Source of the DNA: Desulforegulaceae bacterium
GTDB lineage: Bacteria; Desulfobacterota; Desulfobacteria; Desulfobacterales; JACKCP01
DNA: 64,000 nucleotides
NCBI GenBank assembly: GCA_034006035.1
Contig: JAVETN010000004.1
Span: 1-64,000 of the forward strand
Reading direction: 5' to 3'
Within the stretch, counting starts at the first letter, position 1. The number at the start of each line of letters is the position of its first letter. Below the pieces are notes generated by a model. That model worked only from the letters and a program-made list of their open reading frames with translations, did no database searches and was not told the DNA's origin. Of the stretch, positions 8,465-21,605 are shown piece by piece. The translations under genes and the position numbers were made by a program.

Positions 8465-8496
8465 TTGTATCAGGCTGAAAATCAGTCTGATACAAG
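8465..8496. terminator. Hairpin terminator between aspA and the RND pump gene
   Basis: TTGTATCAG-G-CTGA and TCAG-T-CTGATACAA form a long stem with one internal mismatch and a tiny AAA loop, then a T-rich stretch (GATTATTTT). It lies between convergent genes and can serve either strand, better for aspA. Confidence 0.6.
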
Positions 8497-8502
8497 ATTA
8501 TT

Positions 8503-11500
8503 TTAGTATTCCTGGTAGTTTACCCTGAAAAATATTTTGTAAAGTGTAGGTACAAAAATAAGGGTAAGTACAGTTGCAAACATAATACCGAAAATTATTG
8601 AAATAGCCATTGGTTCCCACATAAGCCCGCCTCCAAGCCAGAGTGGAACAAGTCCAAGTGAGGTGGTTATTGTTGTCAGAAGAATGGGGCGGAGCCTTTG
8701 AATTCCTGAATCAACAATTGCGTGGAAAGTATCCTTGTTGTTTTCTGTTTCTTCAATATTTATTCTGTCAATAAGAACAATTCCATTGTTTATTACTATT
8801 CCTCCAAGGGAAATAATTCCGAGAAATGCCATGAATCCAAAGTATGAGCCCGTAATGTAAAGGCCTGCAATGACTCCTACAAGACCAAGGGGAATGGTTA
8901 AGATTATTATCAGAGGTTTTCTTATGGAATTGAACTGGGCTATTAGGAATATGATTATAATAAAAAAGCAGATTGGGAGTTTTTTTGCCACAGCACCCAT
9001 TGCATCAGCACTTCCTTCTGCGTCTCCTCCAAGTTCAAAGCTTATGTTTTTTTGTTTCAGATTTTGGTTGTTATTAAGCCAGGGAGAGATTGCTCTTGTA
9101 ATTTCAGCAGCTGTGTAATTTGTTTTTACATCCGAAGTTACTGTTATGGTTTTTGTAAGATCCCTTCTAAGCACTTTTGTAGGCTGCCATTCAACTCTTA
9201 TTTCTGCAACCTGGGACAGAGGAACACCTTTTCCTGATTGCTGAGCATAAATATTTATTGTTTTAAGGTCTTCAATTTTAAGCAAATCAGCTTTTTCATT
9301 TTTCATTACTATGGGAATAGTTTTGTCACCCTCCCTAAAGCTGCCTGTTCCTACTCCTGAAAGGATTGTCTGAAGTGAAACTGCAATATCTTGATTTGTT
9401 ATTCCTGCCATCTGTGCAGCAGCAGGATTAATTTCTATTACAAGTTTTTTAGTTTTCATTCCCCAGTCATCGTCAACATTTTTAGCTCCTGGTATTGTGC
9501 GAAGTTTTTCTTTTATTTCTTCTGCAGCAAAATATAAACTTTCTATTTCATCACCTGAAAGTCTTATCTCCACAGGGTTTGCAGAGCCGCCTCCGCTTAA
9601 AAGCCTTGAGACTGTATAAGTTGCGTCAGGGAAATTATTGAAAATAAATGAATCAACTTTTTCAATAATATAGTCGTTTATATTGTCTGAGGTGGTGTTT
9701 AAAAGAAGATGGGCAGAGTTTGGATTTGATTCTGGGGGCAAATATCCAAGATCATATTTTGGAGCACCTTCTCCAATATAGGAAGACCAGTTTATAATTC
9801 CTTCTTTTCCAGACTGGACAAGAAGGTTTTCTTTTACAAACTCTTCAATATTTACAACAACTTGTTCAGTTCTTTCAATTGTAGTGCCAATAGGAAGCTC
9901 TAGGTTTACTGTTACAAGAGCCCTGTCGCTTTTTGCCATGAAAATAAAAGGGATTTTTGTTCCCAATATAAAGGAAAGCAAAAATACAAAAACAATTGTT
10001 GCTACGGTTAATTTAGAATATTTAAGGCAAAAGATAAGAGCTTTTTTATATTGGGAAGCTATTTTTTCAAAAAATGAATTTTTCTTGTTTTCTGATTTTG
10101 AAGACGATTTTATTCCGTATACACAGAAAAGAGCAATTATTGTAAGAGTTAGGATCCATGAGCTTAAAAGAGAATAACTCACAACTATAAAAATATTACC
10201 CATAATTTCGCCCATTACAGAATCCGCAAGAAAAAATGCCATAAAAGCAGCTGAGGTGGTAATAGATGATGTAAAAAGTGGAAACATAAGTTCTTTTGCC
10301 GATTCTATGGTTGCATCAAGAGAACTTTTTCCCTCATCAATTTTAAAAAGAACTGATTCTGACATTACTATTCCGTTGTCAACAAGAATTCCCAGGGCAA
10401 TTATAAGAGCAGCAAGGGAAACTTTGTTTAAGCCCACGTCTGTAAGGGATATCAAAAAAATTGTTGTAATCATTGCACAGGGAATAAGTGAAGCAACAAT
10501 AAAACCTGTTCGCAAGCCAAGAAATAAAAGCATGAGTACGAGAACAACAACAACAGACTGAAGAAGATTGCCCACAAAATCATTTACTGATTTTTCAACA
10601 ACAAAATCCTGGGAGGCAACCCTTTCAAACTCAACTCCATGGGGATATTTTCCCCTTAAACTATCAAGCTTTTCATCAATCTGAAGGCCTAAGTTGATTG
10701 TATTTCCGCCTTTTTTCAGGTTTACTCCAATTGCAAGTCCTTGAACTCCGTTTATTCTTACAATATTTGTCTTTGGTTCCTCATATCCTCTTCTTATTGT
10801 GGAGATATTTGAAAGTTTTATGATTTTACCCTCATTTGAGGATATAATCATATTTTTAAGATCCTCAATGTTTTCGAAATTTCCTGTGGGCTCAAGGATT
10901 ATTCTTTGTTGACCGACTTTTATTTCCCCTCCCGGAATTATTATATTTGTTCTTTCAATTAAATTGCTCAGACTGCTTTTTGTAATCCCAGTTTCAAGAA
11001 GCCTTGCATCATCAAATTCCACATAGATTTTTTCTTTTTGTTTTCCTGCAATTTCAACTTTTGCAGCATCAGGAAGTTTGATAAGTTCATCTCTTATTTC
11101 ATCTGCAATATCATTGATTTCAGCATAGGAGTGCCCTTCGGCTGTAAGGCCCACAATAATTCCAAAAACATCTCCTACTTCGTCATTTATTTCTACATGA
11201 GCTCCTTGAGGAAGTTCTTTTTGTACATCTTCAACCTTTCTTCTTATTCGGTCAAAAATTGGCTGAAGCTCATAAACATTTTCTTTTAAAGAAATATTGA
11301 CTATGGAAATTCCTGTTCTTGATTCGCTTGTTATATAGTCAACTTCGGGTATTTCCTGGACAACTTTTTCTATTTTGTCAGAAATAAGATTTTCAATTCG
11401 ATCCGGGCTTGCTCCTGAATATGCGGTGACAATGCTTATATATCTTATAAGAAAAGGCGGCATATCATCGCGGGGCATTGAATTAAAAGAAGAGATTCCG

Positions 11501-11568
11501 CTTATGAGCACAACAGTAAGGATGGAAAGGGTTAGTACATAATTTTTTATTGAAAACTTTGTAAGCAT
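8503..11568 (-). CDS. RND-family efflux pump inner-membrane transporter (AcrB/HAE type)
   Basis: A 1021-residue proton-driven export pump of the AcrB/MMPL (RND) superfamily. It has the standard layout: an N-terminal membrane helix (VLTLSILTVVLISGIS), a large periplasmic loop, a six-helix block, a helix near residue 520 (LTVATIVFVFLLSFILGTKI), a second large loop and a second helix block. The fourth helix carries the family pattern GILVDNGIVMSESV with the acidic proton-relay residue. Its periplasmic adaptor gene lies 17 bp upstream. Substrate is unknown; the composition does not point to heavy-metal (CzcA) pumps. The outer-membrane partner encoded at the head of the operon is broken, so a working complex would need another TolC. 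Confidence 0.92.
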   Translation of the reverse strand: MLTKFSIKNYVLTLSILTVVLISGISSFNSMPRDDMPPFLIRYISIVTAYSGASPDRIENLISDKIEKVVQEIPEVDYITSESRTGISIVNISLKENVYELQPIFDRIRRKVEDVQKELPQGAHVEINDEVGDVFGIIVGLTAEGHSYAEINDIADEIRDELIKLPDAAKVEIAGKQKEKIYVEFDDARLLETGITKSSLSNLIERTNIIIPGGEIKVGQQRIILEPTGNFENIEDLKNMIISSNEGKIIKLSNISTIRRGYEEPKTNIVRINGVQGLAIGVNLKKGGNTINLGLQIDEKLDSLRGKYPHGVEFERVASQDFVVEKSVNDFVGNLLQSVVVVLVLMLLFLGLRTGFIVASLIPCAMITTIFLISLTDVGLNKVSLAALIIALGILVDNGIVMSESVLFKIDEGKSSLDATIESAKELMFPLFTSSITTSAAFMAFFLADSVMGEIMGNIFIVVSYSLLSSWILTLTIIALFCVYGIKSSSKSENKKNSFFEKIASQYKKALIFCLKYSKLTVATIVFVFLLSFILGTKIPFIFMAKSDRALVTVNLELPIGTTIERTEQVVVNIEEFVKENLLVQSGKEGIINWSSYIGEGAPKYDLGYLPPESNPNSAHLLLNTTSDNINDYIIEKVDSFIFNNFPDATYTVSRLLSGGGSANPVEIRLSGDEIESLYFAAEEIKEKLRTIPGAKNVDDDWGMKTKKLVIEINPAAAQMAGITNQDIAVSLQTILSGVGTGSFREGDKTIPIVMKNEKADLLKIEDLKTINIYAQQSGKGVPLSQVAEIRVEWQPTKVLRRDLTKTITVTSDVKTNYTAAEITRAISPWLNNNQNLKQKNISFELGGDAEGSADAMGAVAKKLPICFFIIIIFLIAQFNSIRKPLIIILTIPLGLVGVIAGLYITGSYFGFMAFLGIISLGGIVINNGIVLIDRINIEETENNKDTFHAIVDSGIQRLRPILLTTITTSLGLVPLWLGGGLMWEPMAISIIFGIMFATVLTLIFVPTLYKIFFRVNYQEY

Positions 11569-11585: not shown

Positions 11586-12674
11586 TTACTCAAATCTAAC
11601 TTTGAGTCCATTGGATAGTTTTGAAATACCTGCTGTTACTATAAATTCACCGCCTTTAACTCCGCTTATTATTTCAAATCCTCTGTCAGTTATCCCCCCT
11701 GTTTGAACAATCCTTTTTTCAACTATTCCAAGGCCGTTTGTATCAGGCTTTAATATATAGACAAAATTACTCGAACTATCTTCTCCAACTGAATGAACTG
11801 GAACCATAAGGTGTCCACCCGATGAAATGTTTTTAAAATCAAATCTTACATCAGCAGGCATTCCTGGTCTTATTTTTTTTGTGGGGTGAAGAATTTTTAT
11901 TTTTACAGGATAAGTAGAAGATTTACTGTCAAGGCTATAGGAAACTTCTGTAACTTCTCCATTGAAAACTTTGTCTTTAATGGAGTTGAACTGAATTTCA
12001 ACCAGATCTCCTTTTTGTACAGAAGATATATATATTTCAGGAATTCCCGAACTTATTTCCATTTTCTCAAAGGATTGAATTTCAAGAAAAACCTGACCTG
12101 CTTTAATGTTTTCCCCTTCTTCAGCGGATTTGTTTGATACAATACCTGAAACAGGAGCAGTTAACTTGTAATATCCCAGTTCTCTTTTTTGAAGCTCTGC
12201 ATTTCTTTTATCAGCAAGCCAGGTGGCATTGGCATTTGCAAAGTTATCTTTTGCAGCTTCATATTCATTAAGGGAAATATTGTTGTTTTCATAAAGACTT
12301 TTAAGTCTTTCAAGATTTGATTTAGCAGTTTTTCTATAAACCTGGGATCTGTTTAGGGAGGCAAGCATTTTTTCATACCTGAGTTTTGCATCTGAATCAT
12401 CGAGGACTGCAATTAATTCTCCCTGGTTTGTTTTGTCGCCTTCTTTTACATTGATTTTTTCAATTTTTCCTCCAACTCTAAAGCTTAGTCTTGATATTCT
12501 TCCAGATTGTGAAACACCTGAAAAAGTTCTTGAATGCATCTCGTTGGATTTAAAAACCTGAATATATTTTACAGGTCTTACTACCTCTTGTTCTTCGCTT
12601 TGTTTTTCTTCGGCACATGAAAAAAAACCAAGAAACAAAGCAAAGATAATTGCTATTTTAAGTTTTGAGTTCAT
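11586..12674 (-). CDS. RND efflux periplasmic adaptor (membrane fusion) lipoprotein
   Basis: Links the inner-membrane pump to an outer-membrane channel. The true start is ATG at 12674-12672, preceded by CAACAAGGAG; the frame stays open further upstream only because it crosses a 74-bp tandem duplication. The product of 362 residues begins with a lipoprotein-type signal, IIFALFLGFFSC, with Cys20 as the probable lipidation site. Then come barrel-sandwich halves (SFRVGGKIEKINVKEGD and APVSGIVSNKSAEEGENI) around a helical hairpin, and beta-barrel and membrane-proximal domains. It is the second gene of the efflux operon. A minicistron created by the duplication lies directly upstream and may affect its translation. 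Confidence 0.9.
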   Translation of the reverse strand: MNSKLKIAIIFALFLGFFSCAEEKQSEEQEVVRPVKYIQVFKSNEMHSRTFSGVSQSGRISRLSFRVGGKIEKINVKEGDKTNQGELIAVLDDSDAKLRYEKMLASLNRSQVYRKTAKSNLERLKSLYENNNISLNEYEAAKDNFANANATWLADKRNAELQKRELGYYKLTAPVSGIVSNKSAEEGENIKAGQVFLEIQSFEKMEISSGIPEIYISSVQKGDLVEIQFNSIKDKVFNGEVTEVSYSLDSKSSTYPVKIKILHPTKKIRPGMPADVRFDFKNISSGGHLMVPVHSVGEDSSSNFVYILKPDTNGLGIVEKRIVQTGGITDRGFEIISGVKGGEFIVTAGISKLSNGLKVRFE

Positions 12675-12828
12675 TTTTTCTCCTTGTTGAAACCTGAACA
12701 GAGCGTCCCATATTTTTGGAATTAGTTGTTTTGTATATAATCTTTCATTTTTTCTCCTTGTTGAAACCTGAACAGAGCGTCCCATATTTTTGGAATTAGT
12801 TGTTTTGTATATAATCTTTCATTTTTTC
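12671..12828. repeat. 74-bp tandem direct duplication (about 2.1 copies)
   Basis: Two head-to-tail copies of a 74-bp unit occupy 12671-12744 and 12745-12818, followed by the first 10 bases of a third. Each unit spans the last codons of the tolC-like gene, its stop, the spacer and the ribosome-binding site of the next gene. The copies appear identical, so the event is recent or the copies are kept uniform. Confidence 0.95.
12722..12748 (-). CDS. Eight-codon minicistron MKDYIQNN created by the duplication
   Basis: The repeat copy nearest the adaptor gene contains ATG AAA GAT TAT ATA CAA AAC AAC TAA, a copy of the last codons of the tolC-like gene, preceded by its own AAGGAG ribosome-binding site. 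The codons are seen directly. Whether ribosomes use it is inference; it would act as a leader cistron 47 bp before the adaptor start. Confidence 0.35.
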   Translation of the reverse strand: MKDYIQNN

Positions 12829-14145
12829 ATTAAAATTTTGGTTTTCTTGATCTGAATAAAAAAAAGAATATCTTCCAATTGTTCTCTGAAGCTTAAGCGT
12901 TGTTGATAAAAAATCGTAAACTGAATTCATCTGACTTAGATCTGCACTTAATGATTCATTTTGTGCATTCACAAGCTCAGTAACAGAGACCTTTCCCCTG
13001 GCATAGAGATCTTGAACAAGGACAAGGCTTTTATTTGCATAGTCGGCTGAAGTTTTAGATGCTTCAAGGTTTATAATTTTGTTTAAAAGTTCAAGAATTG
13101 CCGCTCTTACATTGACTTCAATTGTGTTTGAGATGATTTTTCTTTCTTCTTGAAGCTTGTCAAGGTTGAGCTCGGTTTTTTTTCTGTCAAGATTTATTCT
13201 GCCCTTTGAATAAAGAGGCCATGAAAGGTTTAATGCAATAGTCCACTCATTATCTTCAAGATCTTTGTTGGGAATACTTGAACCCTCACCGCTTCTGTCA
13301 AAAATATGTAAAGCTTCTCCCGCAACTGAGGCAATAGGAAGAAACCTTTCCCTTTTGTACCTTTTAAGTTCCCTTGAGTAGGCTTTTTCGATAAAATTAA
13401 TTTGTTTTATTTCCGGAGAGTTTTCCAGGGCTTCTTTTACAAGGAAGTCGGAAAATTTTTTAAATGTGGAAGGGTTGTTTATATATTTGTAGGATTCTTT
13501 TGATTTATAATTTTTGAAAAGTTCACCTTCCAAAGATTCATCCACAAGATAAATTTTTTCCCTAAAAGCTCTGTTAAGTATTTTATTCAGGTTTAATATC
13601 TGAAGCCTGTGGGTGTTTGAGGCTTCAAAAAGGTCCTTTGCATCTGTTGCTACTGAACTTTTCCACCTGTAAACATCTGATTTTCCTGAATAGCCGGCAA
13701 CTTCCCTTTGCTCTGAAATTGAAAGGTGCTTTTTTGTAAGCTGAAGGTTGTCTTTTCTTATTTTTGCTATGGTTTTTGCTTTTAACACATTGAAATATGC
13801 TGTGGCTGCCTGGTTGACAATGTCTAGTTGTTTTGTTTCAAGAGCACTTTTCTGGGCTTTAAGATAGTTTCTGCTTGCTTCCTTTCCAGAACTTATTGGT
13901 TCGGAAAAAATAAGCTGTTCTACCCTGACAGAAGTGGAGGCAGTTCTTTCTGCTGCTGTTCCCATGGAGTTTTCAGCTCTTTTTGAGTCTATTATTGTTT
14001 CTCCTGCATTAAGACTTAAGGAAGGAAAATATTGTGATTTTGCAAGTTTGTAATCCTGACCTGAAATATCGGTTTCAAGGGATGATACTTTTAGATCAAG
14101 ATTGTTTTTTAAGGCCTGCTCAACAACATCTTTAAGACTTAACAA
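12796..14145 (-). CDS. TolC-family outer-membrane efflux domain (C-terminal part of a broken fusion gene)
   Basis: This open frame holds a complete TolC-type domain of 449 residues: LKDVVEQALKNNLDLKVSSLE at the start, two repeats of long periplasmic helices, the family's SLNAGETI strand and an ALNLSWPLYSKGRINLDRKK strand region. It lacks a signal peptide. The same frame continues upstream for another 331 codons through a TAA at 14209-14211 and a TAG at 14950-14952 to a real signal peptide at 15138. Thus the domain is the C-terminal half of an interrupted larger protein. Initiation at the ATG at 14145 would give a channel protein that cannot be exported. It is the outer-membrane gene of the RND operon. 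Confidence 0.75.
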   Translation of the reverse strand: MLSLKDVVEQALKNNLDLKVSSLETDISGQDYKLAKSQYFPSLSLNAGETIIDSKRAENSMGTAAERTASTSVRVEQLIFSEPISSGKEASRNYLKAQKSALETKQLDIVNQAATAYFNVLKAKTIAKIRKDNLQLTKKHLSISEQREVAGYSGKSDVYRWKSSVATDAKDLFEASNTHRLQILNLNKILNRAFREKIYLVDESLEGELFKNYKSKESYKYINNPSTFKKFSDFLVKEALENSPEIKQINFIEKAYSRELKRYKRERFLPIASVAGEALHIFDRSGEGSSIPNKDLEDNEWTIALNLSWPLYSKGRINLDRKKTELNLDKLQEERKIISNTIEVNVRAAILELLNKIINLEASKTSADYANKSLVLVQDLYARGKVSVTELVNAQNESLSADLSQMNSVYDFLSTTLKLQRTIGRYSFFYSDQENQNFNEKMKDYIQNN

Positions 14146-15138
14146 TGATTCTTGGTCAATTATATGAGTGTCGATGACTTCAGCTTCTGAAAGAACTGCA
14201 AAGGAAGGTTAAAATCCAAGTTTTGAAGCTGTTTCCATGTTGATTACAAATTTTTTCTCAAGGTCCATTTTCACAGGGAGTTGGGATAATTTATTTCCAC
14301 CTAAATAAGATTCAATATTAAGTGCTATTCTTCTTATGGTTCTTATATGGCTTTCCTCAGGATAAAGGGCTGCGATTGCACCTGAATTTATATCTGAACT
14401 TGAAGAGCCGAAAGCTAAAATACCAAGGTTTGAAAGAGCAAGCAGGTAAAAAAGTTTTTTTTCGTTTCCAAATCTTCCAAAATACCCAAGATAAACACTG
14501 TCATAGTCTGATATTCTAGTTAATACATCATTAATTCCAGTGGTAAGATGGATAACTCCTATTTCAGCTCCAAAGGATTTTGCTGATTTTTTAAGAGGTT
14601 CTAAATTATTTATAACTGAATCAATAATTTCGCTTTGTGCAACTATTGCAAGCTTTTTAAAGGGGTAAACCTTGTGAAAAGTTTTAATGTCTCCTTCAAA
14701 ATCTTGATTAAAAAGAATGTATGTGAAATTTTTAACTCCGGATTTGTTTTTGTTTGAAACATCAAGCCCTTGAATAAGAGGATCAATTATTCCAACAGCT
14801 ATTACAGGTTTTTTAAATTCTTTTTCCGAAGAAATAACCGCACTTGAAAGAACGCCTATGCTGATAATAAAATTTACCTGGTTATTGTTTAAAAGTAATT
14901 GATAGTTTTCCTTTGCTTTTTTGGCACTCCAGTCAGATGAAAGAATCAGCTAGTCTTTGATTACAATGCTGTCTGTAATAAGAGCTTTGACTTCTTTTTT
15001 CAACAGGCTGATAAAGGGCTCCGACATTTTTGGTAAATCATCAACAATTATTCCAGGTACTATTATTTGAGGGGCTGAATATGAAGTGTTTGCAAAAATG
15101 ATAAAGACAAATAATGATAAAGCGATTATTTTTTTCAT
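14146..15138 (-). pseudogene. ABC-type substrate-binding-protein-like domain, N-terminal half of a TolC fusion, with two in-frame stops
   Basis: Begins with a clear signal peptide (MKKIIALSLFVFIIFANTSYS, cleaved near Ala). After 62 codons comes TAG (14950-14952). The same frame then reads DWSAKKAKENYQLLLNN, FIISIGVLSSAVISSEKEF, KKPVIAVGIIDPLIQGLD and GYFGRFGNEKKLFYLLALS, meets TAA (14209-14211) after TASKLGF, and runs on without a shift into the TolC domain. The middle part looks like the periplasmic substrate-binding fold of the PF04392 type. No indel is needed: two point changes turn a fusion gene of about 780 codons into a pseudogene. The TAA sits where Ser (TCA) would fit. Confidence 0.75.
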
Positions 15139-15160
15139 TTTATTTCCTTAAATTAAGGAC

Positions 15161-20768: not shown

Positions 20769-21605
20769 TTAGTTTTGTTTTTTCCTCATAAATGAACAAA
20801 GTCCTAGTATTCCAAGACCAAAAAGAATTAATGTTGAAGGTTCAGGAACAGGATCAAGAGTGTTTGAAAAAGAGCCTGCTTGAATGAATACGCCTGAGTC
20901 ATAAGCGTAGTCTCCGGCATCTGCAATTGCAAGCTTTAGATTATAGGTTTCACCTGGAGTAAGGTCATTTATGTTAACTGTAAACATGGACGTAAACCCA
21001 TCGTATTCAAACATGTAGTCTCCGTTTTCATTGTCAAAATAAAATGAAGAATTTCTGTTGTTATTGACGTTATTGATTGAAACAGGAGTTTGTGTTCCAG
21101 GTATAAGAGCATAGTTGATATCGTTCATAAAAAAGCCGAATACATCGTTAAAGCTACTGTCTACATATTCGTTGTATTCATCTGATGCAAATATATAGTT
21201 GAAATATGCATTTTCCCCTGAACTTTGAAAATCTATTGACAGTATTGTTGCATCAAAGGTTTCATAGCCAGGAATAAGATCGTCAAGTATAGATGAGCCG
21301 GGCAAATTGTTATTTCCGGTTATTGAGTCACTTGTATTTACTGTTCCGTTAGCATTTAAAGCAAAACCAGATGTTAAAAGAATTCCTTTGTCAATTTCAA
21401 GTCCTGATAAAAGGCCATCTGAAAAATATCCCGAGGCTTCATTTGCTCCGGTATAAGATGTCCCAACGATTGTAATTCCTGTGCCTAAAAGTGTTTGTGC
21501 CATATTATCCGAATTGTCAAAAGGAGTGATTGTTACAGCACCTGCATTTACTGAAGACATTAAAAATAAAAAAAATATTAAAAATAATGCTTTTGCTTGT
21601 TTCAT
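20769..21605 (-). CDS. Choice-of-anchor L-type surface protein with PEP-CTERM sorting signal
   Basis: A 278-residue exported protein. It has an N-terminal signal peptide (ALFLIFFLFLMSSVNAGA) and a C-terminal PEP-CTERM tail: VPEPSTLILFGLGILGL followed by a basic RKK cluster. That tail is removed by an exosortase during export to the cell surface or exopolysaccharide matrix. The body, with SDGLLSGLEIDKGILLTSG and FNYIFASDEYNEYVDSSFND, matches the choice-of-anchor L domain, which is found with several alternative C-terminal anchors. Many Asp/Asn residues suggest calcium binding. It is monocistronic. No exosortase gene is in the window, so it must lie elsewhere if the tail is functional. Confidence 0.88.
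   Translation of the reverse strand: MKQAKALFLIFFLFLMSSVNAGAVTITPFDNSDNMAQTLLGTGITIVGTSYTGANEASGYFSDGLLSGLEIDKGILLTSGFALNANGTVNTSDSITGNNNLPGSSILDDLIPGYETFDATILSIDFQSSGENAYFNYIFASDEYNEYVDSSFNDVFGFFMNDINYALIPGTQTPVSINNVNNNRNSSFYFDNENGDYMFEYDGFTSMFTVNINDLTPGETYNLKLAIADAGDYAYDSGVFIQAGSFSNTLDPVPEPSTLILFGLGILGLCSFMRKKQN

Follow-up and report, generated by a model that had tools for sequence, protein, structure and literature searches.

How should we read a gene that joins a periplasmic binding domain to an outer-membrane channel in a single frame, stands at the head of an RND efflux operon and is crossed by two in-frame stop codons? An earlier note on this DNA took it for an unusual fusion, decayed by point changes. 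The reading that we consider quite probable is that it belongs to a conserved exported family, in which a TrpX-type binding domain lies N-terminal to a TolC-type outer-membrane factor, and that it was inactivated only recently.

The gene occupies positions 15138-12796 on the minus strand of the window, by which we mean the whole stretch of 64,000 nucleotides that was analysed. It forms one frame of 780 codons, ending at its natural stop TAA (12796..12798, minus) and interrupted by a TAG at codon 63 (14952-14950, minus) and a TAA at codon 310 (14211-14209, minus); the frame, the strand and both stops had been placed exactly in the earlier note. The start codon is preceded by a Shine-Dalgarno-like AAGGA (15145..15149, minus), recognised in the sequence 6 nt upstream of the ATG, and is followed by what by eye appears to be a signal peptide (MKKIIALSLFVFIIFANTSYSA; 15073..15138 with the start codon, minus). 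Hydrophobic leaders also open the relatives of the gene. With the natural stop included, the fusion frame contains three stops in 781 codons. The remaining five frames of this stretch contain 38-62, and random sequence of like composition would contain about 47-56, with a minimum of 24 in 2000 Markov shuffles. Both internal stops replace what are sense codons in the relatives: the TAG falls at a variable position, and the TAA falls in a conserved motif that closes the binding domain. Codons 1-780 enter a single alignment, in which the relatives align nearly full-length and in one frame, and no frameshift is present, so that the claim of point changes without a frameshift stands. Next to the TAG the copy has a gap of two residues, which we do not take for a damaging deletion, as the nearest intact relative shares it.

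Two domains are recognisable in this frame, as the earlier note had supposed. The outer-membrane channel domain (TolC/OEP, 12853..14142, minus, limits approximate) is complete, and Pfam OEP (PF02321) matches it above cut-off at 6e-45 in two stretches that correspond to both repeats. It has no signal peptide of its own, and the one at the head of the gene is severed from it by the two stops, which leaves the channel without a contiguous export signal. Upstream, and with both stops inside it, lies a type I periplasmic binding domain of the PF04392 or TrpX-like kind (14179..15066, minus, limits approximate), matched in the same frame as OEP by Pfam ABC_sub_bind (PF04392) at 1.1e-7, with 31.8 bits against a cut-off of 25.9. 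Among the intact relatives, PF04392 recognises only six out of 17 at E 0.001, and we therefore regard the binding domain as a divergent branch of PF04392.

Structural comparison supports both assignments. For it we used an AlphaFold2 model of L050, the closest intact relative at 39% identity, built from a 17-sequence alignment; the window copy was not itself folded. With a mean pLDDT of 85.9, the model consists of two confident domains. Residues 25-324 of the relative match TrpX-type binding proteins over nearly their whole length (3lkv, Z 27.1 with 287 residues aligned; 3lft, Z 25.6; 6hni, Z 25.1), and residues 334-762 match TolC at Z 27-30 over about 400 residues, with a Z of 28.3 for E. coli TolC (1ek9). 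A profile of the binding domain only also finds 3lkv (1.6e-10), 3lft and 6hni by sequence. One of these structures, 3lft, was solved with L-Trp.

An important aspect of this locus is that the fusion is not an isolated case. Among 389 genomes of the order, 55 contain relatives, spread over 32 of its 150 genera, and a sample of 395 genomes from across the phylum yielded 25 with a match; most matches are a single open frame that spans both domains, the few partial ones lying at contig ends or containing TolC only. The family that fuses a binding protein to an efflux channel is thus recurrent and widespread in sulfate-reducing and related bacteria. Among named records, relatives occur for instance in metagenome-assembled Desulfobacteraceae, Desulfobacula, Desulfatitalea and one Candidatus Eisenbacteria genome. 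Sulfuricurvum kujiense DSM 16994 has one as well, of 803 aa and encoded on plasmid pSULKU01 (WP_041667226.1; locus L086 5035-12291), whose sole annotation is 'ABC transporter substrate binding protein'. The genome under study itself encodes an intact paralogue of 824 codons (L023 9081-11555, contig G000:C1), which has its own adaptor and RND gene and is highly divergent, with a tree branch of 3.65. The earlier note had held that its reading would fall if intact two-domain homologues were nowhere to be found; many exist, one of them in the same genome. Its reading is supported, with the qualification that the arrangement is a recurrent family instead of a one-off. Nearly all relatives have an adaptor and an RND pump as neighbours. 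At 44 of the 50 fusion loci that we examined, an RND gene lies on the same strand no more than 3.5 kb away, and two gene orders occur, namely fusion-adaptor-RND, as in the window, and adaptor-RND-fusion.

Apart from its two stops, the window copy evolves like an intact gene. It retains 53 of 62 conserved columns; for the nearest intact relative the figure is 56 of 64, and for the intact paralogue 50 of 66. In a quick tree the branch of the window copy measures 0.88 against 0.86 for its intact sister. The codon-position G+C pattern of its two longer pieces resembles that of the neighbouring genes. Since there is no frameshift and the gene has evolved no faster than its sister, the inactivation, if real, would be very recent, although an undegraded body is also expected of an intact gene with sequence errors, a polymorphic gene or a gene that is read through. 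To describe the copy as decayed, as had been done, is right with regard to the stops and overstates the age of the break.

According to the main rival explanation, with which this undegraded body would agree, the gene is intact in the population, and the two stops arose through faulty consensus calling or assembly of a genome from a metagenome, or represent a minority variant in it. Several observations are consistent with it: the gene shows no other decay, no second gene interrupted in the same frame was found in the window, and an assembly join could explain the exact tandem duplication of 74 bp near the gene's end (see below). Another family member, in a different genome (L069, contig G008:C155), is likewise full length but for a single in-frame TAG, at about position 2878 within its TolC domain; this may be a further case of loss or of error. 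On the other hand, a single gene would have to have acquired two independent stop-creating substitutions while its neighbours stayed clean, and few substitution errors get through consensus calling. We thus consider it unlikely, while preferring it to the other alternatives.

Programmed or suppressor read-through at both stops, yielding or regulating a full-length fusion, would likewise account for a frame that continues intact past both stops with normal conservation. The base after both the TAG and the TAA is a C, and a C after a stop codon can favour read-through in some systems. However, the two stop codons are different, relatives have sense codons at both sites, and no suppressor tRNA (anticodon CTA or TTA) occurs among the 43 tRNA matches in the genome, which is 97.7% complete. 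PylS is not found in the genome above cut-off either; its one match scores 24.6 bits against a cut-off of 178, and we rejected this weak match as a general aminoacyl-tRNA-synthetase signal because 13 of 14 control genomes also match, one of them above cut-off. Read-through therefore seems to us very improbable. Scarcely any credence is due to a split of the fusion into separately working genes, in which internal starts would give a channel on its own and perhaps also a separate binding protein. While the second stop does coincide with the junction of the domains and leaves TolC whole, the first stop falls within the binding domain, and neither downstream piece looks translatable into a working protein: in the 246-codon piece between the stops (14209..14949, minus), codon 225 is the earliest at which an ATG, GTG or TTG occurs, and the first start open to the TolC piece, which lacks a signal peptide, is a TTG some 21 codons past the second stop. 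With no usable start in the one and no signal peptide on the other, no working product is expected without read-through. Recent inactivation remains our preferred reading, and the broken copy is in itself a case of ordinary gene loss.

The rest of the operon is in good order, as had been stated in the earlier note. Behind the fusion gene at its head follow its own periplasmic adaptor, an RND membrane-fusion protein that is full length and has a lipoprotein-type signal (11586..12674, minus, with the likely start at ATG 12674), and an RND permease of 1021 aa with a full-length ACR_tran match (8503..11568, minus). A hairpin 3' of the RND gene (8465..8495, listed on the plus strand) is a possible terminator. 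What had been missed at the junction of the TolC and adaptor genes is an exact tandem duplication of 74 bp (12670..12828, minus; 2.1 copies, 100%), which runs from the TolC 3' end across the gap between the genes to the adaptor start, and adds a second TolC 3' end and a second ribosome-binding region for the adaptor. It also produces an upstream start at 12785, and for this reason ORF callers open the adaptor at a false ATG. The duplication, too, looks recent. Elsewhere in the window, at 20769-21605 on the minus strand, a predicted secreted protein ends in what by eye resembles a PEP-CTERM-like sorting motif (PEPSTLILFGLGILGLCSFMRKK).

In the genome under study, the two stops leave a peptide of 62 residues only; the channel chain should not reach the outer membrane, and presumably no protein product results. 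The remaining adaptor and pump could then use another outer-membrane factor of the genome. Other OEP genes are present on contigs C1, C2, C3 and C19, and the TolC piece, used as a single-protein query against the genome's own contigs, gave no match, its relatives probably being too distant for exact patterns.

For the intact members, we can only sketch how such a protein might work. As the binding domain precedes the first TolC helix, the order of the folds and the known topology of TolC would place it in the periplasm, beside the channel, so that three binding domains may surround each trimeric channel. There they could catch a small ligand, perhaps one that is amino-acid-like, and either deliver it to the adaptor and RND pump or make docking or opening of the channel depend on it. 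The fusion is conserved in its pairing with an exporter, which speaks for a function of the family in efflux. We tentatively propose that the intact family may be an undescribed class of outer-membrane factors, whose binding domain would capture or sense a substrate and couple it to a dedicated RND, or sometimes ABC, pump, in a binding-protein-dependent efflux rather than uptake, and of which the window copy would be a natural loss.

Substrate pick-up in tripartite efflux pumps is usually placed at the inner-membrane transporter and the adaptor. A family that has a binding protein on the exit channel and is kept together with one pump suggests that capture or gating can also take place at the outer-membrane component. 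Because the binding domain is small and akin to binding proteins of solved structure, the idea of ligand capture is directly testable, and the broken copy, whose pump genes and whose paralogue elsewhere in the genome are intact, offers a natural case of loss. The channel and the binding protein are each of known kinds, and their fusion is already present in public records; we found no description of a binding-protein/TolC fusion in the open-access literature searched.

How, then, does the family compare with known systems? It shares with the TolC and OprM outer-membrane factors (PF02321, OEP) a complete two-repeat OEP domain, the TolC fold with its expected long-helix topology, as judged from the intact relative, and an operon with an adaptor and an RND permease; it differs from them in that about 300 additional residues form a domain N-terminal to the channel, and the window copy differs further in being interrupted. 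With the TrpX-type binding proteins (PF04392; PDB 3lft, 3lkv and 6hni, the last being CD0873) it has in common the fold of a whole domain and a profile match in sequence, but here the domain is joined to an efflux channel, and what the fusion operons that we looked at encode beside it is an RND pump, replaced in Sulfuricurvum by an ABC exporter with HlyD, and no ABC importer. The Sulfuricurvum kujiense protein WP_041667226.1 combines the same two domains in one chain and is encoded in an operon with an HlyD adaptor. In contrast to the window copy it is intact and adjoined by TetR regulators, and the engine of its locus appears to be an ABC exporter (RbbA-like together with an ABC permease) instead of an RND pump.
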